This document shows, one piece after another, positions 1 to 18,171 of a stretch of DNA of 32,612 nt. The first letter of the stretch is position 1, and each line of letters begins with the position of its first letter. The translations under genes and the position numbers were made by a program. The notes beneath the pieces were generated by a model that was not told where the DNA came from, did not search any database, and saw only the letters and a list, made by a program, of their open reading frames with translations. This DNA comes from a virus: IMG/VR virus record IMGVR_UViG_3300005563_000073, positions 1 to 32,612 of that record; one strand, written 5' to 3'.

Positions 1-120
1 GTAGCCCTCATCGCGGAAGCAGACCGCGATGAGGGTGTCGCCGGCCAGCGTGGAGGCGTGCGACGAGAGCGTGACCGTGGCGAACTCGGCCGAGCCAGTG
101 GTGACCCCAATGAACGACAC
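1..120 (-). CDS. Beta-rich phage protein, N-terminal part (3' end outside window)
   Basis: Forty codons are present from a GTG at 120, open to the window edge. The reading is VSFIGVTTGSAEFATVTL followed by LAGDTLIAVCFRDEGY, resembling the N-terminal beta-sandwich of the composite tail protein at 9351 (AIGNLLLVSTLTTS) and of many phage tail proteins. Full length unknown. Confidence 0.55.
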   Translation of the reverse strand, partial: MSFIGVTTGSAEFATVTLSSHASTLAGDTLIAVCFRDEGY

Positions 121-123
121 AGG

Positions 124-231
124 TCACCCGCCCCCGCGACGGCGAAGGCGCTTGCCGACGTAGAGCGCCACCGGCACCGACACCACGCACCAGGCGGCGA
201 GCCCGATCAGGACCCATGCGAGGACGGACAC
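124..231 (-). CDS. Very small membrane peptide
   Basis: 35 residues from GTG, preceded by GAGGGGGG, and ending TGA. Residues 3-26 are hydrophobic (VLAWVLIGLAAWCVVSVPV) and the end is basic (GKRLRRRGGG), so N-out, C-in orientation is likely. The next gene starts three bases after the stop. The spacing, ribosome site and membrane profile make it credible. Function unknown; a small lysis or membrane regulator is possible. Confidence 0.55.
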   Translation of the reverse strand: MSVLAWVLIGLAAWCVVSVPVALYVGKRLRRRGGG

Positions 232-286
232 CGCCCACCCCCCTCGCGTCTCGACCAGGGAACGGAGGGGGGCGGGCGGGGCCGGG

Positions 287-679
287 TCAGGCGAGCGAGA
301 TCGTGATCGAGCCCGCGGCGAAGGAGAGGGTGTCGCCGGCGTTGGTGGTCTTGCTGGTGATCGTCCCGAACCACTTGCGGATCGGGGTGCCGGCGGAGTC
401 CCAGATCTCCACGGCGACGACCGTGGTGGCGGGCATGCCGGTGTAGTTGACGGCCGAAGTGGTCGTCACGGAGCCCGCCGACGCGGTGCCCAGCGCGGCG
501 GTGAGGGACTGGCCGCCGGCCGTGTAGGAGCCGCCGGTGACCTCGGTGCCGTTGGCGGTGGCCGTCGGCGTGGTGGTCATCAGCCGCAGCTTCACCGGGC
601 TGACGGTCGCCGTGTAGGTCGCTGCGGCCAGGCTGGCCTTGAGCAGGTTGTTCGCTTCGGTCTGGTCGATGTTGGCCAT
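287..679 (-). CDS. Phage structural protein of the tail-fibre-associated type
   Basis: 130 residues. The series LRLMTTTPTATANGTEVTGG, SYTAGGQSLTAALG, VVAVEIWDSAGTPIRKWFGT and GDTLSFAAGSITISL is the pattern of a widespread small beta-rich phage protein found near tail genes, in which a GTEVxGGSY motif and a C-terminal GDTLxFxAGxLxIxL motif are constant. Probably a virion decoration or fibre-associated protein. ATG follows GAGAAGGAG. Confidence 0.78.
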   Translation of the reverse strand: MANIDQTEANNLLKASLAAATYTATVSPVKLRLMTTTPTATANGTEVTGGSYTAGGQSLTAALGTASAGSVTTTSAVNYTGMPATTVVAVEIWDSAGTPIRKWFGTITSKTTNAGDTLSFAAGSITISLA

Positions 680-738
680 GTCCGGCCTCTCCTTCTCGGT
701 CTGGAGCGGCGACCGGGAAGTCGCCGGGCACGCTGATC

Positions 739-765
739 ACCCGGGGCGCGCGAGGCGCCCCGGGT
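739..765 (-). terminator. Perfect 11-bp hairpin
   Basis: ACCCGGGGCGC / GCGCCCCGGGT with a 5-base loop, 24 bases after the stop of the Cys-rich gene, in the gap 680-789. No U-run follows. Confidence 0.55.
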
Positions 766-789
766 GCGGGTGAAGCGGGGGGTTGGCCG

Positions 790-1116
790 TCAGGCCGTGA
801 CGCCGTGCAGGTGGAGCTGGAACTCGCGCCCGGTCTTGTCGCCGGCGTCCTTGCGGGCGGTGGCGCACAGCGGGCACCCGAGGGGGGCGCAGCAGTCCAT
901 GTGCCGCTCGGTGCCCTCGCCCGACTGGGCGTTGAGGGTGAAGAAGTGCTTCGGGTGGTTGTCGGTCTGGCCGCACACGCCGCACGTGGTGACGTGGGTG
1001 GGCTCGGGCACGTCGGCGGCCGACAGGGCGGCGGGCGCGCCGCCGTCGACGACGGCGCCGTTGAAGGTGTCGACCTCGGCCTGCGACAGCGGCGCGGTGG
1101 GGGTGGGCTCGGTCAT
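790..1116 (-). CDS. Cys-rich small protein, probable zinc binding
   Basis: 108 residues; ATG with AGAGGAC upstream. Residues 1-40 are low-complexity. Residues about 45-93 have CGVCGQTDNHPKH followed by HMDCCAPLGCPLCATA, giving two CxxC units, one CC pair and several His residues, enough for one or two zinc sites. Function unknown. Confidence 0.78.
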   Translation of the reverse strand: MTEPTPTAPLSQAEVDTFNGAVVDGGAPAALSAADVPEPTHVTTCGVCGQTDNHPKHFFTLNAQSGEGTERHMDCCAPLGCPLCATARKDAGDKTGREFQLHLHGVTA

Positions 1117-1145
1117 GACGGGTGTCCTCTCGCGGGCATGACGAA

Positions 1146-1185
1146 GACCCCCGACGCCAAGGCGGCGACGAGGGTCCGGGGGGTC
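1146..1185 (-). terminator. Hairpin upstream of the Cys-rich small gene
   Basis: GACCCCC / GGGGGTC, with further pairing inside, in the 84-base gap 1117-1200. On the minus strand it ends GGGGGTCTTCGTCATG, nearly the same as the terminator before the capsid gene (GGGGGTTTTTCGTCATG). Confidence 0.5.
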
Positions 1186-1200
1186 GGGTGGGGGCCGGCG

Positions 1201-1566
1201 CTACTGGATGGCGCGGCTGAGGTAGAGCGTGCCGTCGCCGACGCGGATCTTGCGGTCGGCGAGCGGCGCGGCCGGGTCCTCCAGGTACAGCTGGTAGGGC
1301 GCGTTGGCGAAGCGCCACAGCAGCGTCTGGGCGGCGGTGACCGTCGGGATGAAGAACTGGCCTTGGAACTGCACCAGGCCCTGCTCGATGGTCGGGTTGT
1401 TCGACCAGGTGAACAGCGGTGCGCCGTCGCGGTCGGCGATGACGCCGGTCGCGATCATCGACGGCCCGAGGATCTTCGGGTTGCCGTCGGCGTCGACGAT
1501 GGCGAAGGCCTCGCCCGGCCAGTCGGCCCCCTGGTCGAGGTACAGGTCCTTGTGGAGGGCGGTCAC
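1201..1566 (-). CDS. Small phage structural-type protein
   Basis: 121 residues from a GTG that overlaps the upstream TGA; ends TAG. Pattern DLYLDQGADWPGEAFAIVD, then IATGVIADRDG, then QLYLEDP and GDGTLYLSRAI, resembles a family of small beta-rich phage proteins commonly located near tail or fibre genes. Role uncertain; probably virion-associated. Confidence 0.72.
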   Translation of the reverse strand: MTALHKDLYLDQGADWPGEAFAIVDADGNPKILGPSMIATGVIADRDGAPLFTWSNNPTIEQGLVQFQGQFFIPTVTAAQTLLWRFANAPYQLYLEDPAAPLADRKIRVGDGTLYLSRAIQ

Positions 1567-2009
1567 ACCTCGCCTCCCTGGGCTGGCATCGTGGCGGTGC
1601 CCTGGGGGCCGGTCGCGGGCACGCGCGCCTCGGCGATCGCGGCGAGCGCGGCGGTGAGGGCGTCGGCGGTGACCGCCGGGGTGGCGAGCGCGGGGGCTGC
1701 CGCGGCCAGTCGGTCGATCTCCTCGTAGACCATCGCGCGGATCACGCCGCGCACCCCGTCCCAGGTGATGCGCCCGACCGGGGAGACCCGGGCGCGGGCG
1801 GCGAGGGTCCCCGCGACCGCCAGCACCAGTGCCAGCACGGTGCCGATGAGGTCGATCGTCTTGTCGGGGATCACGAGCCAGCCTGCGGCGGCGGTGGCGT
1901 AGAGCAGCGTGGTCACGGCGTGCGCAAGCACGACCGGCTCGCTGGCGCCCTGGCCGCCGGTGTCGAGCCGGTGCTGCCCCGCGGTGACGTCGGGCAGCGG
2001 GCCGCTCAT
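1563..2009 (-). CDS. Holin-like two-helix membrane protein
   Basis: 148 residues, coupled to the amidase gene by ATGA. Two hydrophobic helices at about 30-47 (VTTLLYATAAAGWLVI) and 51-71 (TIDLIGTVLALVLAVAGTLAA), joined by a short loop (PDK), and followed by RARVSPVG, a pattern seen in actinophage holins and holin-like proteins. The C-terminus is Ala-rich and helical. Topology and position next to the endolysin are the basis for the call. Confidence 0.7.
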   Translation of the reverse strand: MSGPLPDVTAGQHRLDTGGQGASEPVVLAHAVTTLLYATAAAGWLVIPDKTIDLIGTVLALVLAVAGTLAARARVSPVGRITWDGVRGVIRAMVYEEIDRLAAAAPALATPAVTADALTAALAAIAEARVPATGPQGTATMPAQGGEV

Positions 2010-2863
2010 CCGGCGGTCGGCGAGTCGTCAGCGGTGCCGTCGGGGCGGAGCCGGCACAGCCGCTTGGAGCGGCGGTCCAGCTCGTCCCAGGTGACCTTCT
2101 CGACCCACTGCTCGACGGCGAGGCCCTTGTCGATCGCGGCCTGCGCCGACACGACCTCGCTGTCGCCGAGGCCGACCAGGACGCCGCCGGACAGGATCGC
2201 GGTGATGACCTGGGGCTTGGTCTTGTCGGGCTGGTAGCGGATGTACATCTCGTCCTCCTGGGCGGGCGGCCGCCTCGGGGCGGGCCGGGCTGCGGGCTCG
2301 TGGTCGCCGGTGACCGCGGCCATGAACCGGTCCCACGGGAACCCGGGGCCGGGGTCGCTGTGCGTGCTCTGGTGCCAGGCCTTGCTGACGTCGACGTGGC
2401 CGCAGATGCCGTGCCGGCCGGCGAGCAGGTCGGCCGAGGTGAGCCGCACGAGGGGGATGCCGAACCGATCGCACAGCTCCCGGGTGCGTGCCGCGGCCCG
2501 CGCGACCGCCGGCCACACGTCGTCGGCGAGCCACTGCTCCCGGGTGTAGCTCTGCCGGTAGTCGCCGCCCTCGGCGCAGATCTCGATGCCGAGGCTGTTG
2601 ACGTTGGGCGGGGCGTGGTAGGCGACGGTGGTGTCGGGCACGCAGTGCTGCTCGCCGGCGACGTCGCAGACGTAGTGCGCCGACCCGCCGGCGGATCCGC
2701 CGGCGAAGTAGTGCGCCGTCGACAGCGCGAGCCCGGCCGCCGAGGCATGCGGGTAGCCCACCTCGGGGCAGGTGGCGTGGATGACGACGCGGGTCGGGTG
2801 CGGGTTGTCGCCGACAGCGCGGGAGCTGTTCAGGGCGCGCACGCCGATCGCGGGCTCGGCCAT
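2006..2863 (-). CDS. Endolysin, N-acetylmuramoyl-L-alanine amidase (Amidase_2)
   Basis: 285 residues; ATG with GGAG seven bases upstream. Residues about 20-185 form an Amidase_2 (PGRP/AmpD-like) domain. Zinc ligands are the His in VVIHATC, the His in ICGHVDVS and the Asp in SDPGPGFPW; IEICAEGG supplies the conserved core strand. It cleaves the lactyl-amide bond between MurNAc and L-Ala, releasing phage at lysis. Residues about 200-285 are a separate tail (VITAILSGGVLVGLGDSEV) without a recognised wall-binding motif. The stop overlaps the holin-like gene (ATGA). Confidence 0.9.
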   Translation of the reverse strand: MAEPAIGVRALNSSRAVGDNPHPTRVVIHATCPEVGYPHASAAGLALSTAHYFAGGSAGGSAHYVCDVAGEQHCVPDTTVAYHAPPNVNSLGIEICAEGGDYRQSYTREQWLADDVWPAVARAAARTRELCDRFGIPLVRLTSADLLAGRHGICGHVDVSKAWHQSTHSDPGPGFPWDRFMAAVTGDHEPAARPAPRRPPAQEDEMYIRYQPDKTKPQVITAILSGGVLVGLGDSEVVSAQAAIDKGLAVEQWVEKVTWDELDRRSKRLCRLRPDGTADDSPTAG

Positions 2864-2876
2864 GGCAGATCTCCGA

Positions 2877-3500
2877 TCAGGCCGCGAGCTCGGCCCAGAC
2901 GATGACGCTGGACAGGTAGTTGTGGTGGGCCGCGTCCAGCTCGCCGCCGCACGTGATCAGGCGCAGCGTCGGGCCGGGAGTGGGCCCGTAGACCTCTTCC
3001 GTCGGGAAGGCGCTCTTGGGCACGGTCGCGGTGCGGGTGACGACGAAGGTGACTGTCGACCCGTCGGAACGGTCGACCCGGATCTGGTCGCCGACCTTGA
3101 CCTGCTTGAGCCGGTAGAAGATGCCGGGGTGGCCGTGGCTGTCGACGTGCCCGAGCAGCACTGCCGGGCCGGGCGCGCCCGGCTTGGACGAGCCGCGGTA
3201 CCAGCCGGCCTGCATCGGCGTCGCCAGTGACGGCACCTCGACGGTGTGGTCGGCGTTGAGCCCGAGGCTGATCAGGCTGGAGTGGGCGTCGATCGCGGGC
3301 ACCGTGACGGAGACGGGGTCCGCGACCGACGCCGCCGCCAGCGGGGCCGGCGCGGCCGAGCTCGTGGACGCCGCAGGCGAGGCTGGCGGCGCCGGAACGG
3401 CCATCGAGCTACGAAGGGCCACGCCACCGATCACGGCCAGGCCGGCCAGGATGACCGCCAGCACGCCGTAGGTGGCGACCCTGCCAGGGGCCCTGTGCAC
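2877..3500 (-). CDS. Sortase (class E/F-like)
   Basis: 207 residues from GTG at 3500, the first start after the upstream TAG. Residues 9-29 are a membrane anchor (ATYGVLAVILAGLAVIGGVAL), 36-60 an Ala/Pro linker, 61-207 the catalytic beta barrel. Catalytic His is H118 in LLGHVDSHG, catalytic Cys is C184 in LRLITCGGELD. Expected reaction: cleavage between Thr and Gly of a sorting motif and transfer to an amine of peptidoglycan or another protein, at the outer membrane face. No Arg follows C184 before the C-terminus, whereas sortases normally need one there; H192 and H193 lie where it would be expected. The gene sits between its likely substrate and the endolysin. Confidence 0.88.
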   Translation of the reverse strand: MHRAPGRVATYGVLAVILAGLAVIGGVALRSSMAVPAPPASPAASTSSAAPAPLAAASVADPVSVTVPAIDAHSSLISLGLNADHTVEVPSLATPMQAGWYRGSSKPGAPGPAVLLGHVDSHGHPGIFYRLKQVKVGDQIRVDRSDGSTVTFVVTRTATVPKSAFPTEEVYGPTPGPTLRLITCGGELDAAHHNYLSSVIVWAELAA

Positions 3501-3507
3501 GAGGGGT

Positions 3508-4107
3508 CTACTCCTCGCCCGTGTCCGGCGCGCCGACCGGGAACCGGGCGGCGGGCGCCACGACGACGGTGGTGGGCGGCGGCACGACGACCGTGGTGGA
3601 CGGCGGCGCAACCGTGGTCGGCGGCGGCACGACCGTGGTCGGCGGCGGCGCGACGGTGGTCGGCGGCACCACGACCGGCGTGCAGGCCGCGACCTTCGCC
3701 TCGAGCGCGGCCTTCAGGGCGGCCTCGGCCTTGGTGACGGCGTCGAGCGCGTCGGAGGGGACGGCGTCCTTGGCGACCTGGGCCAGTGCGGCGACGAGGG
3801 CCTTCGTGGCGGTGTCGACAGCGACGATGAGGGCCGGGGTGCCGGGGTGCGCGGCGAGCGCGGCGACAGCGTCGGTGAGGTTCTTCTGCGCGGTGGTGAC
3901 GGCGACCTGGTCGGCGGCGAGGGCGCTCTGCAGGCCTGCGAGGTGGTCGGAGGCGGCGACCGCGGTGCGGGCGGCGGCAGACACGCGCGCGATCGCCTCG
4001 GCGCAGCCCACGGTGTCCGGGCCGACCGGGGCGGCGGCCATCGCGGGCGCGCCGGCAAGTAGCGCGGTGGCCGCGATGCCAGCGACGAGCAGGGAGTAGC
4101 GCTTCAT
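3508..4107 (-). CDS. Exported Pro/Thr-rich protein with C-terminal PDTG sorting-like motif
   Basis: 199 residues; ATG with AGGAG seven bases upstream. A clear signal peptide (MKRYSLLVAGIAATALLAG, cleavage near AMAAA) is followed by an Ala-rich helical domain (about 30-150, with two Cys) and a Pro/Thr/Val stalk of PPTTV units (about 152-187). It ends FPVGAPDTGEE. PDTG matches the core of the sortase motif (xPxTG), but there is no following membrane helix and basic tail. The sortase gene starts seven bases after the stop, so this is the obvious candidate substrate. Stalk plus sorting motif is the architecture of wall-anchored surface proteins. Confidence 0.82.
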   Translation of the reverse strand: MKRYSLLVAGIAATALLAGAPAMAAAPVGPDTVGCAEAIARVSAAARTAVAASDHLAGLQSALAADQVAVTTAQKNLTDAVAALAAHPGTPALIVAVDTATKALVAALAQVAKDAVPSDALDAVTKAEAALKAALEAKVAACTPVVVPPTTVAPPPTTVVPPPTTVAPPSTTVVVPPPTTVVVAPAARFPVGAPDTGEE

Positions 4108-4131
4108 GGAGAGGCTCCTGTCGGGAGGCTT

Positions 4132-4971
4132 TCAGTTGGATGGGGGAACTCCGCCGGGGTCGCCCGTGGCGGGCGGGGCGGTGGGTGGATCGGTGGTGGG
4201 GGGAGGCGGCTGGGTGTCGTCGACGCACCCGCTGCCCACCCGCCCATCGGGGTAGGTCACCCGGTCGCGGTGCTGGCCGGGGTCGCACTGGGTGCCGTCG
4301 CGCCCGGGTGGGCCGGCGGCGGGCGGGTGAGCGGCCAGATAGGCGGCCACCACGGCCGCTACCTGCGCATCTGTTGCCGAAGCGCCCGGCTGTCCGTCGC
4401 GCCCGGGTGCGGGTGGGTGGGCGGCGAGGTAGCCCGAGACGGCGGCCGCGATCTCGTCGGCGGTGGGTGGCCGCCCGGGTGTCGGCGGGTGATCGGTGAG
4501 GTACTGGGCGACCGCGGTGGTGATCTCGGCGAGGGTGGGTGGGCGCCCGGCGGGTGGCGGGTGGGCGGCCATGTACTGGGCGACGGCGGTGGCGATCGCG
4601 GCCGGGCTGGCCGCCTCGGCGGCCGGCACCACGATCGGGGCCGCCTTGACGACGGCGGCCTGCTGGCAGGCTCCGATCGCCTCCAGCTGGGCGGCGGCGT
4701 CGCCGCCTGCGCGGCACGCGGCGGCCACCTGATCGGCGAGGCTGGTGGCCTGCTGGGCGGTCGCGTCGCGCTGCTGGGTGGCGGCGTTGGCCTGGTCGTT
4801 GGCGGCGGCGGCGTTCGTGTCGGCACTCTTCGCGTGGTAGGTGAGCACGATGCCGGCGACCATCAGGAATGCGCCGAGGATCGTCAGCCCGGTGACCCTG
4901 CTCGACGTGACCGCCGTGCGGGTGGCGGTGATGCGCTCGCGGACCTTCTCGAACGCCGACTCGAAGGCCAT
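4132..4971 (-). CDS. Membrane-anchored repeat protein
   Basis: 279 residues. A cytoplasmic N-terminal helix (FEKVRERITATRTAV), one membrane helix at about 26-45 (TGLTILGAFLMVAGIVLTYH), an Ala/Gln-rich coiled coil (51-110), then four units of form AVAQYLAAHPP-x2-GRPPT at residues 126, 150, 174 and 204, a Cys-flanked stretch (QCDPGQHRDRVTYPDGRVG, then GC), and a Pro/Thr tail. The extended, Pro-rich outside part could span the wall. It lies just before the exported PDTG protein. Confidence 0.78.
   Translation of the reverse strand: MAFESAFEKVRERITATRTAVTSSRVTGLTILGAFLMVAGIVLTYHAKSADTNAAAANDQANAATQQRDATAQQATSLADQVAAACRAGGDAAAQLEAIGACQQAAVVKAAPIVVPAAEAASPAAIATAVAQYMAAHPPPAGRPPTLAEITTAVAQYLTDHPPTPGRPPTADEIAAAVSGYLAAHPPAPGRDGQPGASATDAQVAAVVAAYLAAHPPAAGPPGRDGTQCDPGQHRDRVTYPDGRVGSGCVDDTQPPPPTTDPPTAPPATGDPGGVPPSN
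4312..4596 (-). repeat. Tandem 24-residue repeats in the membrane-anchored protein
   Basis: Four units with periods of 24, 24 and 30 residues, each with a short helix (IAxAVAxYLAAH) and a Pro/Gly turn (PPxxGRPPT). The last two turns have collagen-like GRDG. Confidence 0.78.
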
Positions 4972-4973
4972 CG

Positions 4974-5351
4974 TCAGTCCCCCACTCCGGTGCAGTCCCG
5001 CAGGACGAGGGGGTGCGCGTTGCGGGCGGCGATGCGGTCGCGCACGGCCTGGGCGTAGGTGGCGGCGGCGCGCTCCCGATCGGCGGCGGTGCCGCGCGCG
5101 GAGAGCAGGTTGAGCTGGGCGACGTCGAGGTCGCCGGTGGCGTCGCTGAGCGCGGTCACCGCCACCCGGAAGTCGGTATTCGACTGGATCTGGCACGCCG
5201 CGACCGCGGCCAGGCCGCGCTGCGCCGCGTATGACTCGTACGTGGCGTACGCCGCCATCAGCAGGAGGAGGACGCCAAGGACCGTTCGGCCGAGCTCTCC
5301 GAGGCGGCGGGCGCGAGGCCCTGGCCGTCGGACGTGCCGTTGCGGGGCCAC
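4974..5351 (-). CDS. Single-pass membrane protein, possible spanin- or holin-associated
   Basis: 125 residues; GTG with GGAAGG six bases upstream, starting inside the preceding gene (94-base overlap). Basic N-terminus (RHVRRPGPRARRLGE), one membrane helix at about 23-41 (TVLGVLLLLMAAYATYES), then a periplasm- or wall-side helical region with two Cys residues (AACQIQSNTDF; LRDCTG). The topology resembles an inner-membrane spanin-like or wall-interacting protein, but no family is recognised. Confidence 0.75.
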   Translation of the reverse strand: MAPQRHVRRPGPRARRLGELGRTVLGVLLLLMAAYATYESYAAQRGLAAVAACQIQSNTDFRVAVTALSDATGDLDVAQLNLLSARGTAADRERAAATYAQAVRDRIAARNAHPLVLRDCTGVGD

Positions 5352-5743
5352 GGGTCACCTTCCGGGTCGTTGGAGCGGTGCCGGGGGCGCGGCGGCGGCC
5401 ACCGGTCGTCGGAGTAGCCGCCTCGGTCGTCGCGGCGGTCGCGGCCGTTGGGGCCGCGGTACGGGTCGGGCGTACGGCGCTGGTGGTCGCGCCGCGGGGG
5501 GTCGCGCCGCGGGGGCGGCATGACCGGGCGCGGCGGCGGATCGCCGTCGTCGTCGCCGTCCTCGTCGTCGTCGCCGCCCTTGCGGCTGAGCGCGAACGCG
5601 CCGCCGACGACCGCAATGAAGATCCCGTTGATCGACACGTCGGAGTGGTAGTCCGGCACGACAAACTGCGCCCCGAAATTGATCACCCAGACGATCGAGA
5701 CGGTCACGAGAATCGCATTCGCGAGTCGCCGCGGGAGCAGCAC
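5258..5743 (-). CDS. Membrane protein with two helices and charged disordered tail
   Basis: 161 residues from GTG with GGGGGG six bases upstream. Residues about 7-29 (NAILVTVSIVWVINFGAQFV) and 36-54 (VSINGIFIAVVGGAFALS) are membrane helices, followed by a very charged acidic stretch (GGDDDEDGDDDGD) and an Arg/Pro/Asp-rich tail. Location after the fibre gene and before an endolysin fits a lysis-cassette role, e.g. holin-like or antiholin-like. The last 94 bases overlap the next gene in another frame. Confidence 0.75.
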   Translation of the reverse strand: MLLPRRLANAILVTVSIVWVINFGAQFVVPDYHSDVSINGIFIAVVGGAFALSRKGGDDDEDGDDDGDPPPRPVMPPPRRDPPRRDHQRRTPDPYRGPNGRDRRDDRGGYSDDRWPPPRPRHRSNDPEGDPWPRNGTSDGQGLAPAASESSAERSLASSSC

Positions 5744-5780
5744 TGCGGACCCCCCGTCGCAGTTCGTTGGGGCGGGAAGA

Positions 5781-6959
5781 TCAGCGCAGCTGCTCGACGT
5801 TGAAGCGGCACCGCACGTCGGGCTGGTCGACCGAGGTGTCCTGGCTCGACGAGGCCGGGTGCCAGCCCTGGATGGCGACGATGTCGCCGACGTTGAGCTC
5901 CAGCTGCACCGTGTGGCACGGCGTGGTGTTGAAGCCGATGCTGATCACGGGGTCGAAGTTCGCGGTGCCGATCACCGGGTCGCCGTTGAAGGTGATGCGG
6001 CAGCCGACGCCGCCGCCCGAGGCGGAGAACCCGGGGAACGCGACACTGCCGCTGATCTTGTAGGTGCCCTTGCGGCGGCAGGTGTAGAAGCGGCCGTTGT
6101 TGCGGTCGTGGCCCTGGTCGGTGTCGATCACCACGGTGTCGAACCGCAGGTCGGCCCAGACCAGCGCGAGGATCGTCTGCGCCACCGACTGGAACGACGT
6201 GTAGCAGGCGTGCTTCACCAGGCCCACCCAGGTGCCCGGGGTGCCGCCTGAGACGCACACCCACACCGCGGCCGACTGGTCGATGACGAAGTCGCCGCGG
6301 AAGTAGGTTCCGATGATCGGCGGCCCCGAGCTGGTGCCGCCGACGAATCGCGTCGCTGAGACGGCGCCGTCGGTCGGGGCGGGCTGGCCGAGGGCCGGCG
6401 TGAACGGCGGCCGCCACTGACCGGGCGAGCCGGCCTGGTAGCAGATCCACATGTTGCCGGTCTGGTCGACGACGAAGTCGCCCGCGAGGAACGAGCCCGA
6501 GGTCGGGGCGCCCTGGACGGTTCCGCCGACGAAGCGGGCGGCGGCCAGGGCGCCGGTCATCTTGCGGGGCTGCCCGGCGACGTCGGCCCAGCCGACGCCG
6601 TTCGGGAGGCCGGCCGACGACACCAGCGCCTGACCCTCGGCGCCGACGGGCAGGTTCGTTACCGCGCCCGGACCTGACCCGATGATCAGGTCACCGGCGG
6701 CGAGGATCGTGCTGGTGAGGGTGTCGGCGTTGAGCGTGATCCAGCCGCCGCCCCAGTCGTAGTAGATGCGGCCGTTGTCGGTGCCGAAGTAGAAGCGGCC
6801 GTGTTCGCCGGCGGGCGGGCGGGTTGCGGCGGTCCCTTCCAGGTAGACCGCGGCGATGGTGTCGAGCGCGACGGCCAGGCGCTGGAAGTCGCCCGGCACG
6901 TTGTTCGTGTCGCTGCCCGTCGGGTACGGGATCGCCATGCGCGGGGTGGTGGCGGCCAT
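5781..6959 (-). CDS. Tail fibre / receptor-binding protein
   Basis: 392 residues. N-terminal attachment region (PYPTGSDTNNVPGDFQRLA; FYFGTDNGRIYYDWGGGW) is typical of actinophage fibres. Residues 141-182 and 203-244 are two copies of a module also present in the spike/collar protein. The C-terminal part, about 250-392, is a jelly-roll of C1q/TNF type (YKISGSVAFPGFS; RITFNGDPVIG; QLELNVGDIVAIQGWH), a usual receptor-binding head. It is the last of the large tail genes and precedes the lysis and surface cassette. Confidence 0.86.
   Translation of the reverse strand: MAATTPRMAIPYPTGSDTNNVPGDFQRLAVALDTIAAVYLEGTAATRPPAGEHGRFYFGTDNGRIYYDWGGGWITLNADTLTSTILAAGDLIIGSGPGAVTNLPVGAEGQALVSSAGLPNGVGWADVAGQPRKMTGALAAARFVGGTVQGAPTSGSFLAGDFVVDQTGNMWICYQAGSPGQWRPPFTPALGQPAPTDGAVSATRFVGGTSSGPPIIGTYFRGDFVIDQSAAVWVCVSGGTPGTWVGLVKHACYTSFQSVAQTILALVWADLRFDTVVIDTDQGHDRNNGRFYTCRRKGTYKISGSVAFPGFSASGGGVGCRITFNGDPVIGTANFDPVISIGFNTTPCHTVQLELNVGDIVAIQGWHPASSSQDTSVDQPDVRCRFNVEQLR
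6228..6539 (-). repeat. Two copies of the shared adhesin module in the tail fibre
   Basis: Copies at 6414-6539 and 6228-6353, 62 codons apart. Shared pattern: RFVGGT, three to four residues, P-x2-G-[ST], GDFV[VI]DQ, W[IV]C, G[ST]PG-x-W. The third copy lies in the spike/collar gene. Confidence 0.82.
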
Positions 6960-6990
6960 GCGGGGATGCCCCCCTTCTCTGGTCGTTCGG

Positions 6991-9351
6991 TCAGGGGGTG
7001 AGCGACTGGATCTCGATGCCGGCCATCGACGCCTTCTGCCCCGTCGGGGACGACACGCCGAAGGTCTGCGTGCCTTGCGTGGGGGCGGGCTGGTAGCCGA
7101 AGTACATCGTCGAGCTGTTCGGGTAGAGGCCCTCCTGCACGTTGCCAGCGCCTCGGTAGGTCGGGGTGCCGGGCGCGACGTTGTTCCAGTCGGCCGCCAT
7201 CCACGAGACGACGCTGTTCTTCTGGGCGGTGCTCACGGTCTGCGAGCAGGTCGTGTTCGACTGGCTCGAGCCGATCGCTGGCGACGCCGCGAGGGCGGCG
7301 TTGGTCCAGCGCTCGACGACCATCGCGCGCCGGCCGGCCGACCCGCCGAACGCGACGGACACGGTCATGGCGGCTGGGCTGCTCCCGACGACCGCGGTGG
7401 CGAGCTTGCCGGGCGCGTTGGAGCTCGCGGTCTGGTTGGCCCGCGTCGTCCAGGTCAGGCTGCCGCCGCTGATCGTGCCGATGGTTGTCGGGGTGTCGTC
7501 GGCGTAGACCTTGACCACCAGCACCTCGCCGGCGGCGGGGGTGAAGCTGGGGGTCGTGAGGGCGGACGTGCCCGATGAGGTGTCGGGCACGTAGTACGAC
7601 TGGACGAGCTGCGGGTACCCCGACGGGGTGCCCGCGGCGGCGAGGCTGCCCGCGCCGGCCAGGGTGGCGGCGTCGGTCTGGGTGGCCTGCGCGTTGGCGC
7701 CGAGAGCACCGGCGCCGGCCAGGGTGGCGGCCGTGGGCACCAGCAGGCCGCCCGGGTCGAACACGCTGGCGCCGGCCAGGGTGGCGGTCGCGTTGTCGAC
7801 GACGACCTGCCCGGCTGCGGACAGCGAGCCGGCGCCGGCGAAGGAGCGGCTGCTCGACACCAACGCCTTCGGGGCGAGCCCGAGAGCGCCGGTGCCGACG
7901 AGCGGGGCCTGGCCGGCGACGACCATCACGAACAGCAGCCCGGCGGGCTTGGCGGCCTGCACCGCGGCCTTCACCGCGAGGGTGTCAGGGATGAACGTGT
8001 TGTAGTTCGTCGCGGCCGCCGCGAGCAGCGGGTATGTCGGGTAGGTGGCGGTCTCGTCGGCGTAGGTCTTGACCAGGGCGGCAGCGGTCGCGACGGTGAC
8101 GGTGAAGTGGTACGGGTCGGGGCTGCGCTCGGTGATCGTGGCGTGCTGGCCGGGGATGAGCACCGACTCGGCGGCCGCCAGCACCGCGGCCAGGGTGCCG
8201 CGGGCGAAGCCGGCCTTGGCGTCGATCTGGGCGCGCTGAGCGGCGTCGGACTTCGACGGGTCGGCGCGCACCCCGATGAACTGGCCCAGCCACGGCAGGG
8301 CGTAGGTCGGGGCCCGGCCGGTGTCGACGGCCTGGGACCAGCCGGGCCCGTCGGGGGTGTCGCGCACGAGGTCGTCGAGCTGCTGCAGCATGTGGCCGGC
8401 GGCGGCGTCGACGAAGGTGCGCAGCGGGTAGCCGAGCGCGGAGTCGCCCGTGCGGAGGTGCGCGAGCTCCCCGTACAGCACGAGGCCGGCCGGGGTGGGG
8501 TCGTTGCGGGGCGGCGGCCCGGGCGGCAGGCCGCCGCCGGGGGGCGGCAGCTCCGAGCCGGGGGGCGGCGGCGCCGGGCGCACGCCGGGGTAGGCGGTGA
8601 GCTGGCTCGTGCCGGCGAAGGTCGCCGACAGCAGTCCGAGCGGGGTGCGGGCGGTCGCGGCGGCGCCGAACCCACCGGCGCCGGCCAGCGTGACCGACCC
8701 GAGGGTGACGCCGGCGACGGTGCCGGCGACGGAGATGAGCACCGCGATCGTGGCCGATTGGGACGACTGGGTGAGGGTCGCGATGGGCTGCTGGGCGCCG
8801 CCCGAACAGTTCGGGTTGAAGGCGATGCCGTCGCCGGCGGCGTTCGTCAGGAACGTGTAACCGCTGGTGACGCCGCCCTGGTGGAGGGCATTGGCGGCGG
8901 CGGAGACGGAGTGGCCGAAGTAGAGCTGCCCGGCGGCGGTGGGCACCAGTCGGGGGTAGGTCGCCAGCGTCGACGACGAGTTCTGCAGCTGGCCCCAGGC
9001 GCCGGCAATCCACTGGGTGGCCGAGCCGAGGCCGGCCGTGAACTCCTGCACGTCGATCTCGGTGTAGGAGTTGCCGGCGCCGCCGGTCATGCTCAGCACG
9101 ACCGGGTCGCCCGAGCCGACGTTGGCGACGACTGCAGCCCAGATCTGCTGGATGTCGCCCTGCGCGGTGAACGGGCCGGCGACGCGGGTCCAGCCGATTG
9201 CGTTGCCACCCGACACGGCGGTGACCTGCACCGGCGACGTGGTCAGGGTGCTGACCAGCAGCAGGTTCCCGATGGCGTGGGTGGTGACGGCGCGGGTGGT
9301 GGCGCCGTTGGCGGCCACGGACTGCAGTGCACCGACGGGAGAGATCGACAC
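6991..9351 (-). CDS. Composite baseplate/tail protein with central gpI-like domain
   Basis: 786 residues. Residues about 1-215 and 575-786 are similar beta-sandwich-like domains of the phage-tail type (AIGNLLLVSTLTTS; AGEVLVVKVYADDTP), probable surface decoration. Residues about 265-290 are a Pro/Gly hinge. Residues about 290-480 resemble P2 gpI: LGYPLRTFVDAAAG, LQQLDDLVRD, YALPWLGQFIGV, RAQIDAKAGFARGTL. Residues about 480-575 hold repeats with LAGAGxL. gpI normally follows gpJ and links wedge to fibre, as here, but at less than half this size. The start is GTG at 9351; other nearby GTG codons cannot be excluded. Confidence 0.82.
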   Translation of the reverse strand: MSISPVGALQSVAANGATTRAVTTHAIGNLLLVSTLTTSPVQVTAVSGGNAIGWTRVAGPFTAQGDIQQIWAAVVANVGSGDPVVLSMTGGAGNSYTEIDVQEFTAGLGSATQWIAGAWGQLQNSSSTLATYPRLVPTAAGQLYFGHSVSAAANALHQGGVTSGYTFLTNAAGDGIAFNPNCSGGAQQPIATLTQSSQSATIAVLISVAGTVAGVTLGSVTLAGAGGFGAAATARTPLGLLSATFAGTSQLTAYPGVRPAPPPPGSELPPPGGGLPPGPPPRNDPTPAGLVLYGELAHLRTGDSALGYPLRTFVDAAAGHMLQQLDDLVRDTPDGPGWSQAVDTGRAPTYALPWLGQFIGVRADPSKSDAAQRAQIDAKAGFARGTLAAVLAAAESVLIPGQHATITERSPDPYHFTVTVATAAALVKTYADETATYPTYPLLAAAATNYNTFIPDTLAVKAAVQAAKPAGLLFVMVVAGQAPLVGTGALGLAPKALVSSSRSFAGAGSLSAAGQVVVDNATATLAGASVFDPGGLLVPTAATLAGAGALGANAQATQTDAATLAGAGSLAAAGTPSGYPQLVQSYYVPDTSSGTSALTTPSFTPAAGEVLVVKVYADDTPTTIGTISGGSLTWTTRANQTASSNAPGKLATAVVGSSPAAMTVSVAFGGSAGRRAMVVERWTNAALAASPAIGSSQSNTTCSQTVSTAQKNSVVSWMAADWNNVAPGTPTYRGAGNVQEGLYPNSSTMYFGYQPAPTQGTQTFGVSSPTGQKASMAGIEIQSLTP
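7652..7786 (-). repeat. 18-bp repeats encoding LAGAG units
   Basis: The plus-strand 18-mer GCGCCGGCCAGGGTGGCG occurs identically at 7652-7669, 7712-7729 and 7769-7786, with periods of 60 and 57 bases. It encodes the ATLAGA core. Weaker copies flank it (about 7830 and 8687). Confidence 0.85.
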
Positions 9352-13399: not shown

Positions 13400-14259
13400 G
13401 GCAGCAGGATCCGGCGGCCGGGCAGCACGCTGAGCGGGTCGCGGATGCCGTTGAGGATGGCGATGATGTTGGCCTTCTTGTAGTCGCCGAGCTCGCGAGC
13501 GGCGATGCGGGCGAGGGTGTCGCCGTCGCGCACGAAGTAGGCGCGGCCGCCGCCCAGCGTCGGCAGCAGCTGCGCAAGCTGCGGCAGCGCCGCGGACACG
13601 ACGGTGGCGGCGCCGGCCGGGTTGTTCGGGATGCTCGCGACGAACTCCGCGAGCTGCGTGGTGACCTCGCTGGCGACCGCGGCCGGCGCGGCCGACAGCA
13701 GCGACGGCAACTGCTGGATCAGCTCGGCCAGCTGGGCGGGCACCTGGGCGCCGGTCTGCGACAGGACGCTCAGCGCCGCGGACAGCTGCGCCGACAGGGT
13801 CGGGGTCGGCGCGGTGACGATCGCGCCCGCGTGCTCGACGAGGGTCAGCACGACGTCCTGCTGCACGAGCGCGCCGTCGCGGCGGCGCATCTGCTCGGTA
13901 CCCCAGGCGATCGTGATCGCCACCCACTCGGCGACCCCCGACTGGTCGACCGGGCCGACCAGGCTCAGCAGGGGCGGCTCGCCGGTGGCCGCGGTCGGGC
14001 GCATCCACCCCGACACCAGGGCGACCTGATCCTCGATGGAGACGTCGTTGTCCGACCCGTCGAGGATCACGGGCAGGGTGAGCTGCATCAGGGAGTCGGC
14101 GGTGAACTCCAGGAACGCCTTGCGGCGCGGGCGGGCGACCGCGGTCCAGACCGAGCCGCCCGACCCGTACTGCGCGAGCTGTCCGACGTCGGCCAGGCCG
14201 AACCCGACCGTCGGGCCGGCCGGCCGGATCGGGGTGATGAACAGGTCAGGCTGCGGCAC
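13396..14259 (-). CDS. LysM-containing baseplate/tail protein
   Basis: 287 residues from GTG, preceded by AAGGGGTGA. The N-terminal 150 residues are beta-rich (RPRRKAFLEFTADSLMQLTL; SGWMRPTAATGEPPLLSLVG) as in XkdP or gp53-type baseplate hub partners. Residues about 155-235 are Ala/Leu-rich helix. Residues 238-287 form a LysM domain (FVRDGDTLARIAARELGDY, then ANIIAILNGIRDP, then LPGRRILLP), which binds peptidoglycan or stabilises the hub. Gene order after the tape measure fits. The stop overlaps the next GTG. Confidence 0.87.
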   Translation of the reverse strand: MPQPDLFITPIRPAGPTVGFGLADVGQLAQYGSGGSVWTAVARPRRKAFLEFTADSLMQLTLPVILDGSDNDVSIEDQVALVSGWMRPTAATGEPPLLSLVGPVDQSGVAEWVAITIAWGTEQMRRRDGALVQQDVVLTLVEHAGAIVTAPTPTLSAQLSAALSVLSQTGAQVPAQLAELIQQLPSLLSAAPAAVASEVTTQLAEFVASIPNNPAGAATVVSAALPQLAQLLPTLGGGRAYFVRDGDTLARIAARELGDYKKANIIAILNGIRDPLSVLPGRRILLP

Positions 14260-14280
14260 TGGTCATCACCCCTTTCCCGG

Positions 14281-16317
14281 TCAGCGGCGTGCGACGGCGT
14301 CGGAGATGCCCTGCTTCACGGCCTCGTACGCCTCCTGGGCGTTGACGACCTTGTTCAGCACGACGGCGCCCGGGTGGACGTGCACCACGGTGGATCCGGG
14401 GATCGTCGGGCCGCCACTCGGGCCGCCGGTGCGGCGCCGGGCGGAGGTGTCATCGGCGGACATGACGGTGCCGCTCTGCGTCGGCACGAACAGCTCCGGG
14501 CCGCGCTCACCCACCAGGTAGCTCTGCCCGGCGGTCACCGGGCCCCCGTCGGCGCGGGGGGTGAGCGGCGGCGCGAGCCCGCCACCGGAGTACCAGCCGT
14601 AGGCCTGCTCGTGGGCCAGCGCCCCGGCCGGGGAGCCGTAGCGGCTCGCGATGTAGTTCAGACCGGCGGTGGTCTGCGCGGCCGGGTCCGACGTCTTGGA
14701 CGCCCCGTACGCGCCCCACGTGGAGTCGAGGAACTGGAACATGCCGTAGGCGGTCGAGGTCGGGTTCTGCGCGTTGTTGCGGAACCCGCTCTCCCGCATC
14801 ACGACCGCGTACAGCGCGTCCCACTGGGCGCCGGTCCAGCCGCGCGCCGCCGCCATCGACTGCACCAGGGCCGCGTTGCCGCCGACCGCGGCCGGCGCCG
14901 AGCCGACCGGGCCGCCGACCGCGTTGGCGGCGGCGGCCAGCATCGCGTTCCACCAGTCGGTGATCTTCTGGACCAGGCCGTCGACCGCCTTGCCTGGGAC
15001 CTTCACCAGCATCTGCGCGATCGGCGACGACGCCGCACCCTCGGCGCCGGTGATCACGCCACCGAGCCACGCCTTGATCTTCCCGACCGGGTCGGACAGG
15101 AAGTCGCCGATCGACCCGACCGCCGAGCCGAGCCAGCCGAGGATGGTCGACCCGACCCCGCCGGCGCTGCCGCCGCTGCCGCCGGCCACCGGCGCCGGGT
15201 TGCCGACCACGCCGCCGCCGGCGAAGTTGCCGAGCACGGTGGCGGGGCGGCCGCCGCTGGCTGCGGCGTTGAGCGCGAGGATGGTCTGCGGGCCGATCGC
15301 CGCGACGAGCTCGGGGACGAGCACGGCCTCCCCGGGGGAGAGCATCGCGGGAACGGTGTCGCGGCCCGGCGCGTAGCCGCCGATCACGCCACCGCCGGCG
15401 AACTGCGGCGCATCGGGCAGGTGCCCGAGCCCGACGAAGTCGGCAACCCCGTCCCACACGGCCTTGATCCCGTGGGTGTAGACGGTGTCGACCACCCAGT
15501 GGATCGGGACGGCGACTGCCTGCTCGACGCCGGTCCAGACCTGACCGATGATCTTCTGGGCGTCGTCGAACGCCTGACCGAGCACCTTGAGTGCGACGCC
15601 GATCGGGTCGAAAACGTTCGTCTTGATCCAGTTCCAGGCGGTGCCGATGGCATCTTTGATGCCATTCCAAACAGGCACGACGTACGTCTGCCAGAGAACC
15701 TGGAAGCCGATACCCATCAGCGTGACGGCCGTGCTGATCGGCGTGAAAACGTTGGCCTTGATCCAGTTCCACGCCGTTCCGATGGCCGCCTGAATGCCAT
15801 TCCACACCGGGACGACGTATGTCTGCCAGAGAACCTGGAAGCCGATCCCCATGAGCTGGAGGCCGACCTTTATCGGCGTGAAAACGTTGGCGTTAAGCCA
15901 ATTCCACACCACATTGGAGATGTACATAATGCCATTCCAGGCTGGCTCAATGGCGTTTTTCCAGAGCCAAGTGGCCGCCATCCCCATGCCGTCGAAGCCG
16001 GGCTTGATGGTGTTCAGCCAGACCGCATTGACGATCGCAGCGAGAACGTTCCACGCGATGACGAATGGTGACACCAGCACGGTCCACACGACCGCGATCA
16101 GGATGCGCACCGCGAGCCCGATAGCCGAGAACACGGGCGAGAGCACGTTGTCCCACAGCCAGCTGGCTGCCGCGCCGATGGCCTGCCAGGCCGTGACGAA
16201 GGCGCCCTTGACGGTCTCCCACAGGCCAACGAAGAAGGCCGAGATCGGCCCCCAATTGTCGATGATGAAGTAGGCCGCCACGGCGACCGCTGTGACTACG
16301 GCAATGATCGCCAGCAT
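14281..16317 (-). CDS. Tape measure protein, C-terminal part with lytic transglycosylase domain
   Basis: 678 residues in phase with the upstream tape measure part. Residues 1-130 hold hydrophobic helices (IIAVVTAVAVAAYFIIDNWG). Residues about 135-240 carry tandem 45-residue Trp-rich repeats (MGIGFQVLWQTYVVPVWNGI twice). Residues about 480-590 are an SLT/goose-lysozyme-like domain: GWTGAQWDALYAVVMRESGF with catalytic Glu at E509, then AYGMFQFLDSTWGAYG. This would locally open peptidoglycan during DNA entry. The C-terminus is Gly/Thr-rich with FVPTQSGTVMS, common in tape measures. With the N-terminal part and three joining codons the full length would be 1,296 residues. Confidence 0.9.
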   Translation of the reverse strand: MLAIIAVVTAVAVAAYFIIDNWGPISAFFVGLWETVKGAFVTAWQAIGAAASWLWDNVLSPVFSAIGLAVRILIAVVWTVLVSPFVIAWNVLAAIVNAVWLNTIKPGFDGMGMAATWLWKNAIEPAWNGIMYISNVVWNWLNANVFTPIKVGLQLMGIGFQVLWQTYVVPVWNGIQAAIGTAWNWIKANVFTPISTAVTLMGIGFQVLWQTYVVPVWNGIKDAIGTAWNWIKTNVFDPIGVALKVLGQAFDDAQKIIGQVWTGVEQAVAVPIHWVVDTVYTHGIKAVWDGVADFVGLGHLPDAPQFAGGGVIGGYAPGRDTVPAMLSPGEAVLVPELVAAIGPQTILALNAAASGGRPATVLGNFAGGGVVGNPAPVAGGSGGSAGGVGSTILGWLGSAVGSIGDFLSDPVGKIKAWLGGVITGAEGAASSPIAQMLVKVPGKAVDGLVQKITDWWNAMLAAAANAVGGPVGSAPAAVGGNAALVQSMAAARGWTGAQWDALYAVVMRESGFRNNAQNPTSTAYGMFQFLDSTWGAYGASKTSDPAAQTTAGLNYIASRYGSPAGALAHEQAYGWYSGGGLAPPLTPRADGGPVTAGQSYLVGERGPELFVPTQSGTVMSADDTSARRRTGGPSGGPTIPGSTVVHVHPGAVVLNKVVNAQEAYEAVKQGISDAVARR
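15609..15904 (-). repeat. 135-bp tandem repeats within the tape measure
   Basis: The segment beginning GCCATTCC at 15661 recurs at 15796, a 135-base period, and the segment GAAAACGTT(C/G) occurs at 15609, 15744 and 15879, also 135 bases apart. Each unit encodes 45 residues, roughly one Trp-rich helical hairpin. Such units can change tail length in whole steps when copies are gained or lost. Confidence 0.85.
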
Positions 16318-16323
16318 GATCGC

Positions 16324-16326
16324 CTA
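16324..16326 (-). other. In-frame UAG splitting the tape measure
   Basis: Minus-strand reading CTG TAG GCG ATC ATG CTG GCG. The codon lies between two frames that are in phase, with only Ala and Ile codons separating it from the downstream ATG. No purine-rich ribosome site precedes that ATG. Confidence 0.9.
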
Positions 16327-18171
16327 CAGCGGGGCGCCGGCCACGGTGACGGCCAGTGCGCTCGATGCCCACCCATAGAAGGCGACGGTGAGCGCCACGA
16401 CCGAGGCGACCATGATGCCGCCCAGCACCCCGGCCAGGGCCATCGCGACGGTCTGGTGCTGGCTCAGCCAGGTCGCGCCGTCGGCGATCCACCCGACGAG
16501 CACGGTCAGCGGCGGCAGCAGGTAGGTGCCGATGCTGATCGCGAGCGACCCGAGGGCCGAGCCGGCCTGCGACAGCTTGACGTTGAGCGTCTCCTGGATC
16601 TCGGTCCAGCCCTTGACGTCACCGGAGGCGTCCTTGGTGGCGTTGCGGATGACGTCGATGTCGTTGGTCGTGGTGGAGGTGTTCTCCCCGGTGAGCATCA
16701 GCGCGACGTTGAGGCCGGTCGCGTCGCCGGTCGCCCGGCGCAGCGCATCGGAGTAGGACTGCATGGCCGACATGCCGGTGACCTGCTGCGTGCCGACCTG
16801 GTAGAAGTTGGTCGCGAGGGTCTTGAAGCTGACCGCCTGGCTCGCCGAGATCGGGTCGAGATCCTTCGCGGCCTTCGTGTAGTCCTTGAGGCTGATCGAC
16901 CCGTCGAGCAGCTTCCGGCCGAGGTCTTGCACAGGGCCCGGGAGGCCCTTGAGGGCGTTCTGGAGGTTGACGATGACCTTCTGGGCGCCGTCGCCCATGC
17001 CCTGCTGGATGCGTGTCGTGATCTCCAGCAGGGTCCCGGAGAGGCCCTTCGTGCCGAGGTCGCTCGACAGCTGCTGCGCGTTGATGCCCAGCGCGGCGAG
17101 CTCCTTGGCCTGCACCTGAGTCGGCGCGGCCATGTGCTTGATCACGTCGGAGAGGTTCTGCGTCGCCTGCTGCGCCGACATGCCGTGCACGGTCATCGAG
17201 GCGAGGTCGCCGAGGATGTCCTCGAGCGCGACATGGTTCGCCGAGGCGATCGGCAGCACCGACGACAGCGACCCGGACAGCTCCTCGAAGGTCATCTTGC
17301 CCTGCGAGGTGGCCGCGACCAGCTTGCTCGTGACGTCGGCCGAGTCGCTGGCCTTGAGGTGGTAGTCCTGCAGCACGCTGGTGAGGGCGTCGGCGACGAC
17401 GGTCAGGTCGGCGTTCTCGGTCTTCGCGCCCTGCGCCGCCGCCTTCAACACGTCGAGGCCGGCGGCGCCGTGCTGCCCACCGGACTCGACCTTGTACATG
17501 GCGGTGGACAGCGCCTCGGCGCTGTAGCCGACCTCGCCGGCCATCTGCAAGATCCCCTGGCGGACCAGGTCCAGGTTCGACTGCGCCTCACCCGCCGAGG
17601 TGACCAGCCGCTCGGTGCTCTGCTGGAAGTCGGCCGCCATCTTGACCGAGGCCACGGTGACAACCGCGCCGATCGCGGCGACGCCGAGCGCGGCCGCCTT
17701 CATGCTCTTCGCGCCGGCCTCGGTGGCGGCGACCTTGCGCTCTTCGGCGGCGGCCACCTCAGCGGCGGCGGTGCTGGCCGCTGCGGCGCTCTCGGCGGCC
17801 GCCTGCACCTCGATCAGTGCCGCATCGCGGATCGCGAGGGCGGCCGCGGTCGCCGCGTCGGCCTCGGCGCGCTTCGCGGCGGCGAACTCCTCGCTGCCGG
17901 CCGCGGCGAGCGCCTCGGCCTCGGCACCGGCGCGCAGGGCCGCGTTGTAGTCCATCTGGGCTGCGACGGCGGCCTTCATGGCCGCCGCGAGCTCCTTCTG
18001 CGCGGCCTGGTTCTTGACCGTGGCAGCGGACATCTGCTCGCTGGGCGCGACGGTCGCCTTCGCCGACGCCGACATGGCGTCGAGGGCGGCGTTCGCCTCG
18101 GCCAGGCCGGCGACGTACTCGCGCTGACCGATCAGCACCATGCGGGCGCCGACGGTTTCGAGCAGGTCCAT
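16324..18171 (-). CDS. Tape measure protein, N-terminal part (ends at in-frame UAG)
   Basis: 615 residues. Tape measures set tail length and are ejected with DNA. Residues 1-160 form a long Ala/Glu-rich coiled coil. Residues about 190-480 match the TP901-type tape measure core (AADFQQSTERLVTSAGEAQ; GEVGYSAEALSTAMYKVES; VIKHMAAPTQVQAKELAAL). Residues about 525-615 are hydrophobic with membrane-like helices. The frame stops at a UAG in the middle of this hydrophobic region, and the sequence after it stays open in the same frame and continues the usual tape measure pattern. Either a nonsense mutation, readthrough, or a true two-gene arrangement. Confidence 0.9.
   Translation of the reverse strand: MDLLETVGARMVLIGQREYVAGLAEANAALDAMSASAKATVAPSEQMSAATVKNQAAQKELAAAMKAAVAAQMDYNAALRAGAEAEALAAAGSEEFAAAKRAEADAATAAALAIRDAALIEVQAAAESAAAASTAAAEVAAAEERKVAATEAGAKSMKAAALGVAAIGAVVTVASVKMAADFQQSTERLVTSAGEAQSNLDLVRQGILQMAGEVGYSAEALSTAMYKVESGGQHGAAGLDVLKAAAQGAKTENADLTVVADALTSVLQDYHLKASDSADVTSKLVAATSQGKMTFEELSGSLSSVLPIASANHVALEDILGDLASMTVHGMSAQQATQNLSDVIKHMAAPTQVQAKELAALGINAQQLSSDLGTKGLSGTLLEITTRIQQGMGDGAQKVIVNLQNALKGLPGPVQDLGRKLLDGSISLKDYTKAAKDLDPISASQAVSFKTLATNFYQVGTQQVTGMSAMQSYSDALRRATGDATGLNVALMLTGENTSTTTNDIDVIRNATKDASGDVKGWTEIQETLNVKLSQAGSALGSLAISIGTYLLPPLTVLVGWIADGATWLSQHQTVAMALAGVLGGIMVASVVALTVAFYGWASSALAVTVAGAPL

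Follow-up and report, generated by a model that had tools for sequence, protein, structure and literature searches.

A phage-encoded class F sortase and its exported partner with a stripped sorting tag in a late fibre/lysis operon

The DNA analysed, here called the window, is IMG/VR record IMGVR_UViG_3300005563_000073 over its whole length of 32,612 bases (G+C 72.5%), and the family matches of its minus-strand genes to terminase, portal, head protease, major head protein, tail sheath, tape measure and baseplate identify it as part of a myophage. On the same strand lie two genes separated by exactly seven bases (3501-3507), one for an exported stalk protein of 199 amino acids (3508-4107), the presumed sortase substrate, and one for a class F sortase of 207 amino acids (2877-3500, with a GTG start at 3500). 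Upstream, three membrane-protein genes, which together with the pair make up a five-gene block, separate the stalk gene from a fibre-like gene (5781-6959, minus strand; weak PHROG tail-fibre matches, synteny with the contigs L012 and L176), and downstream an Amidase_2 endolysin gene (2006-2863, minus strand; PHROG endolysin 2e-40) starts 13 bases past the sortase end. The original prediction of a sortase and an exported PDTG-ending partner seven bases apart, placed between fibre and endolysin in a late fibre/lysis operon, is thus borne out. Consensus matching over positions 1-7000 of the window, with other promoter types outside the scan, found neither a promoter-like site nor a terminator-like site on the coding strand, which fits a single late transcript.

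The host is probably to be sought among soil actinobacteria, as suggested by the G+C content, the class F relatives of the sortase and the sheath, which has distant relatives in phages of Arthrobacter, Gordonia and Brevibacterium. As side observations on the same record, ARAGORN reports a tRNA-Sec at 17940-18031 on the plus strand, opposite a tape-measure gene, which is probably a false positive, and the adjacent minus-strand genes 14281-16317 and 16324-18171 both match tape-measure families and look like a split tape measure, or like one trailed by a lysozyme-like part.

Sortases are bacterial enzymes that fasten proteins to the cell surface. The protein of the window shows a hydrophobic N-terminal segment followed by the sortase barrel (residues 61-207), and its predicted structure (pLDDT 88) shows the barrel with confidence from residue 61 onwards and has 113 matches in the PDB at E<=0.001, with sortases throughout the matches listed. 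It scores 183.8 bits (E 1.5e-54) against the NCBIfam class F model NF033748, above the curated cut-off of 166 bits, and 30 and 20 bits against class E and class D, respectively, besides matching Pfam PF04203 at 8.9e-24. The catalytic H118 (codon 3147-3149) and C184 (codon 2949-2951, in a TLxTC-like context) are invariant across 41 aligned sortases, as are K162, T183, G186 and Y195. Membership in class F is therefore confirmed, as is the claim of a genuine sortase-type protein of a phage, whereas transpeptidase activity is predicted. At E<=0.001 the BFVD viral structure library gave no match to the sortase model, no PHROGs family matches the protein, and a tblastn search with four class F queries against 50,697 phage records found nothing.

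One position deserves attention, as residue 198 (codon 2907-2909) is Ser in the window, against Asn in 80 of 83 bacterial class F sortases, so that activity or specificity may differ from that of the bacterial enzymes; the viral sortases have Asn (17), Ser (7) or Gln (2) at this site. Loss of a catalytic Arg was considered as a sign of inactivity and dropped, since the sortases of class F do not share a conserved Arg at the site matching R197 of S. aureus SrtA.

A classical sortase substrate combines an N-terminal signal peptide with a C-terminal recognition motif, a hydrophobic helix and a basic tail. The stalk protein starts with a Sec-type signal peptide, judged by eye (MKRYSLLVAGIAATALLAGAPAMA), and continues with a helical domain at approximately residues 30-142, whose helical segment sits between two cysteines in a model of modest confidence, a Pro/Thr linker and a C-terminal tag (...ARFPVGAPDTGEE). 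The protein ends in FPVGAPDTGEE, in which the tag PVGAPDTG occupies residues 190-197 (3517-3540) and is followed by EE and the stop codon alone, with no membrane helix and nothing hydrophobic or basic. Signal peptide and TG motif of a classical substrate are consequently present and helix and basic tail absent, in agreement with the proposal of a stripped-down sorting signal on a matched exported partner. The motif, ending in TG, fits that of class F partners and is not a canonical LPXTG. All matches of the stalk to known families stayed below cut-off.

With the sortase of the window as the only query, viral contigs gave no match, and a nine-sequence alignment was too divergent for scanning. 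Scans of IMG/VR with small alignments and degenerate DNA patterns brought the number of viral contigs that carry a class F sortase to 26, the window and 25 others, which is a lower bound, as sequences using different codons escape pattern scans. These contigs are mostly metagenomic fragments whose viral status is that given by IMG/VR except where hallmark genes were tested, and genes beyond the window were called by a purpose-made simple caller. A tagged neighbour lies upstream of the sortase in 24 of the 26 loci, with a stripped tag in 21 (the window and 20 others) and a full sorting signal including a membrane helix in three (L013, L105 and L123), so that sortase homologues lacking a tagged neighbour, for which the original prediction called for a search, come down to L020 and L117 (neighbourhoods L032 and L151), whose partners have no clear tag. 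These two related partners carry PVGAVSAGDGSC and PVGVAAGDGSC, respectively, some 20-30 residues before the end, with no TG tag, possibly a diverged motif. The pairing exceeds chance: of the 26 genes immediately preceding a sortase, 20 have a loose tag pattern close to the C-terminus, against 14 of the 470 genes that form the background in the viral neighbourhoods.

The conserved element is the octapeptide P-x-G-[GA]-x-[DEN]-T-G, followed by 2-10 residues; conservation of the motif therefore held for the octapeptide, and the exact PDTG initially singled out is not the conserved part. Among the 21 stripped partners, P is found at -6 in 18, G at -4 in 15, G or A at -3 in 17 and D, E or N at -1 in 15. 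Examples are PVGAADTG-AA (L012), PVGAPETG-GL (L019), PVGGADTG-GA (L021), PVGGVETG-GGPA (L022), PSGGVNTG-GGPA (L119) and PVGAPATG-DGSTATRYIG (L112, ending in PVGAPATGDGSTATRYIG). In L025 (neighbourhood L037) the tag is altered to PQGGVQTDGGVE (QTDGG), the inserted D interrupting the T-G bond that a sortase would cut, whereas the otherwise close relative L024 has PNGGVNTGGWKK.

The cargo in front of the tag is variable. An excalibur calcium-binding domain lies above the Pfam cut-off in the partners of L024 and L023, some other viral partners are beta-type by eye, and similarity between the cargo domains of the window and L012 is not detectable (an equally high score arises in 40 of 300 shuffles), despite the tags PVGAPDTG and PVGAADTG and a tail sheath that is 67% identical between the two contigs. 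Gene order is kept in L012, with an endolysin of another type. Endolysin families are found near the pair in the window, L031, L039, L143, L150 and L152, whereas in L034 the pair has the terminase on one side and the portal on the other, and in L038 it is next to a terminase. Capsid-family matches occur in nine viral contigs and tyrosine integrase family matches in ten of the 26, nine of them above cut-off and including G001, the closest relative of the window.

The remaining genes of the block are less constant companions. The membrane repeat protein (4132-4971, minus strand), with one N-terminal helix, YLAxHPP repeats and a C-terminal cysteine pair, has relatives upstream of the pair in approximately nine viral loci by neighbourhood profile search and is missing from many others; the original suggestion that it may hold the substrate is a conjecture. 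Its C-terminus holds a tag-like stretch (PTAPPATGDPGGVPPSN), as does that of the gene before the stalk in L013 (3637-4962; ATPATGTPTDMPT), and the L012 counterpart of the repeat protein is without such an end; a tag-like end in the gene before the stalk could mark a second substrate or arise by chance in a Pro/Ala/Thr-rich tail. The small membrane protein at 4974-5351 (minus strand, start uncertain), with a ..NPLVLRDC-type end, has relatives at position -2 or -3 in L012, L024, L025, L108 and L119, and the first gene of the block, for a small hydrophobic membrane protein (5258-5743, minus strand, start uncertain), has a counterpart in L012.

The whole block is accessory, as it is absent from the close relative phage L176 (baseplate protein 65% identical), where, within the stretch 13723-15952, the fibre gene leads directly to a GH25-like endolysin 13 bases past it, a natural empty site. 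A requirement of the module for lysis was rejected on this ground, and the suggestion that it tunes wall integrity before lysis is weakened, since L176 keeps fibre, endolysin and holin-like genes.

The bacterial sample comprised plasmids, a genome-collection scan and 119 Actinomycetota genomes sampled with the same pattern, with partners sorted by reading their C-termini. A full signal, consisting of tag, membrane helix and mostly a basic tail, was found in 68 partners from Actinomycetota genomes and plasmids, a stripped one in ten (L046, L050, L054, L055, L057, L070, L095, L158, L173 and L052; Nocardia and Micromonosporaceae among others), and five could not be classified. With ten of 78 classified bacterial partners stripped too, the idea that stripped tags are unique to phages was rejected; the form is strongly enriched in viruses and not exclusive to them. 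The Fisher p of 1.9e-11 treats relatives as independent, and as the stripped state needs just seven changes on the tree, the rows represent a much smaller number of independent events. Of the bacterial sortases found, L041 is the nearest (60% identical); its partner has a full signal, and its neighbours are metabolic genes, by eye a dehydrogenase, glycerol kinase and glpF-like genes.

In a tree built from 109 sortases, four changes suffice to explain the viral label, compared with 23.5 in shuffles. A group of 22 of the 26 viral sortases, including that of the window and defined after the tree was seen, fits one clade (AU p 0.78; the constrained tree is better than the free one), so that a phage lineage of sortases exists. 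Holding all 26 together gives an AU p of 0.08, which is borderline and not a rejection, and a single origin of all viral sortases is not favoured by these sequences. Outside the main clade fall L013, a phage record with a full-signal partner and no sheath match, and the group of L018, L114 and L122, whose viral context is less clear, although G003, the contig of L018, has a capsid-family match.

Several known systems bear on how such a pair may work. Actinobacterial class F pairs (NF033748) share the sortase class, the two-gene order and an octapeptide-type motif before the cleavage site; their partners nearly always go on with a membrane helix and a basic tail, whereas the partner of the window stops two residues after TG, and the pair of the window, unlike theirs, sits in a phage late operon. 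The best functional precedent, which works alike with the window not being a member, is AbpA-SrtB of oral streptococci, where a protein ending in its motif plus three residues is anchored by the neighbouring sortase, laddered and partly released (PMC4974636). Like the window it is a two-gene locus with the substrate gene directly upstream and an exported helical cargo, and the AbpA signal, for which anchoring has been shown, has neither a hydrophobic domain nor a charged tail (PMC4974636); unlike the window it involves a class B sortase, an LPKTS motif, a bacterial chromosome and an amylase-binding cargo. In S. aureus, SrtA builds the free peptide LPETG into the wall (PMC3929722). SasX, a prophage-encoded wall-anchored LPXTG protein of staphylococci (PMC8655729), resembles the stalk as a phage-borne gene for a surface protein with a sortase motif, but depends on host sortase A, with no sortase gene described in the phage.

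The whole account rests on sequence and predicted structure, and for cleavage, attachment, acceptor and benefit we infer the following. The stalk would be exported via the host Sec system, as its signal peptide suggests, and the membrane-held class F sortase would recognise the C-terminal octapeptide, cut between T and G and transfer the stalk to a cell-surface amine, most likely a peptidoglycan precursor of the infected host. As the tag lacks membrane helix and basic tail, the partner would be soluble until captured, and some of it probably released, as with streptococcal AbpA. Since cargo varies from phage to phage, the constant function would be covalent display. That the sortase of the window acts on this tag is highly probable, and attachment of the stalk to the host wall is somewhat favoured. 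The altered surface of the infected or lysogenic cell might, as a guess, limit adsorption by rival phages; such a surface change, for example superinfection exclusion, is offered tentatively and with doubt. CwpV of Clostridioides difficile, a cell-wall surface protein with antiphage protection (PMC4737114), is a model for this proposed benefit; it is host-encoded and phase-variable, and no relation to the stalk is claimed.

We lean slightly towards a phage sortase/substrate module that covalently attaches the tagged stalk to the wall of the infected cell late in infection, as the AbpA-SrtB and free-LPETG precedents favour attachment of a soluble stalk with some release over mere secretion. Against it speak the ending up of ordinary sortase substrates without hydrophobic or charged tail in the supernatant (PMC5569036), S198, the untagged partners of L020 and L117 and the interrupted tag of L025. 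That the pair is host DNA misassigned to a virus, or an assembly artefact, is hardly credible: the less clear neighbourhoods of L018, L114 and L122, with their sortases grouping apart, point that way, but for the window this is already refuted by the position of the pair inside a myophage structural operon that is syntenic in L012, and elsewhere the pair has terminase and portal, or endolysin, as neighbours, with capsid-family matches in nine contigs. Quite improbable, too, is that the sortase has its real targets among host surface proteins or wall precursors, with the tag left over as baggage from bacterial class F. The stripped tag does lack the retention parts needed for classical anchoring, and full-signal bacterial class F pairs such as that of L041 are the likely ancestors; yet decay would erase a tag that instead persists across diverged phages during cargo turnover, and stripped tags with their own sortase persist in two bacterial groups.

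Joining of the stalk to another phage protein, be it by fibre polymerisation, linkage to the membrane repeat protein or addition to the virion, would agree with the ladder that AbpA-SrtB also makes, with the accompanying repeat protein in some loci and with the location of the pair near terminase and portal in L034 and near a terminase in L038. This is nonetheless unlikely, as the export and anchor signals on partner and sortase place the reaction outside the membrane, whereas virions assemble inside; in addition, neither a pilin motif nor a conserved residue that could serve as acceptor was identified, and many loci do without the repeat protein. A somewhat better, still minor chance is given to a conversion module expressed by the prophage, in which stalk and sortase provide the host with a useful surface protein. 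The integrase matches, including that in G001, the accessory nature of the block and the SasX precedent (PMC8655729) argue for lysogeny, while the packing of the genes into the fibre/endolysin operon of the window and L012, with no promoter-like site, suggests late expression and hence speaks against it.

With respect to class F sortases in general, their biology is still not established, and the partners beside srtF1 and srtF4 of Actinoplanes missouriensis have been reported to lack a canonical pentapeptide (PMC13251363); the octapeptide pairing offers a candidate explanation for these. A literature search for phage-encoded sortases, with a coverage that leaves out most subscription journals, returned unrelated papers only. 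If true, the module would be the first sortase system of a virus and, at the same time, a natural means of ligation with a minimal tag, and approximately 20 natural substrates would define a minimal tag for a sortase class without an established role. If the enzyme is active, phages would covalently edit the host envelope with an enzyme of their own, swapping cargo under a fixed tag, and the modules would provide a route to surface-based phage competition that can be tested directly. The chances appear evenly poised that actinobacteriophages keep their own sortase lineage with minimal-tag partners and with it clothe infected or lysogenic cells in a covalent coat of interchangeable proteins.
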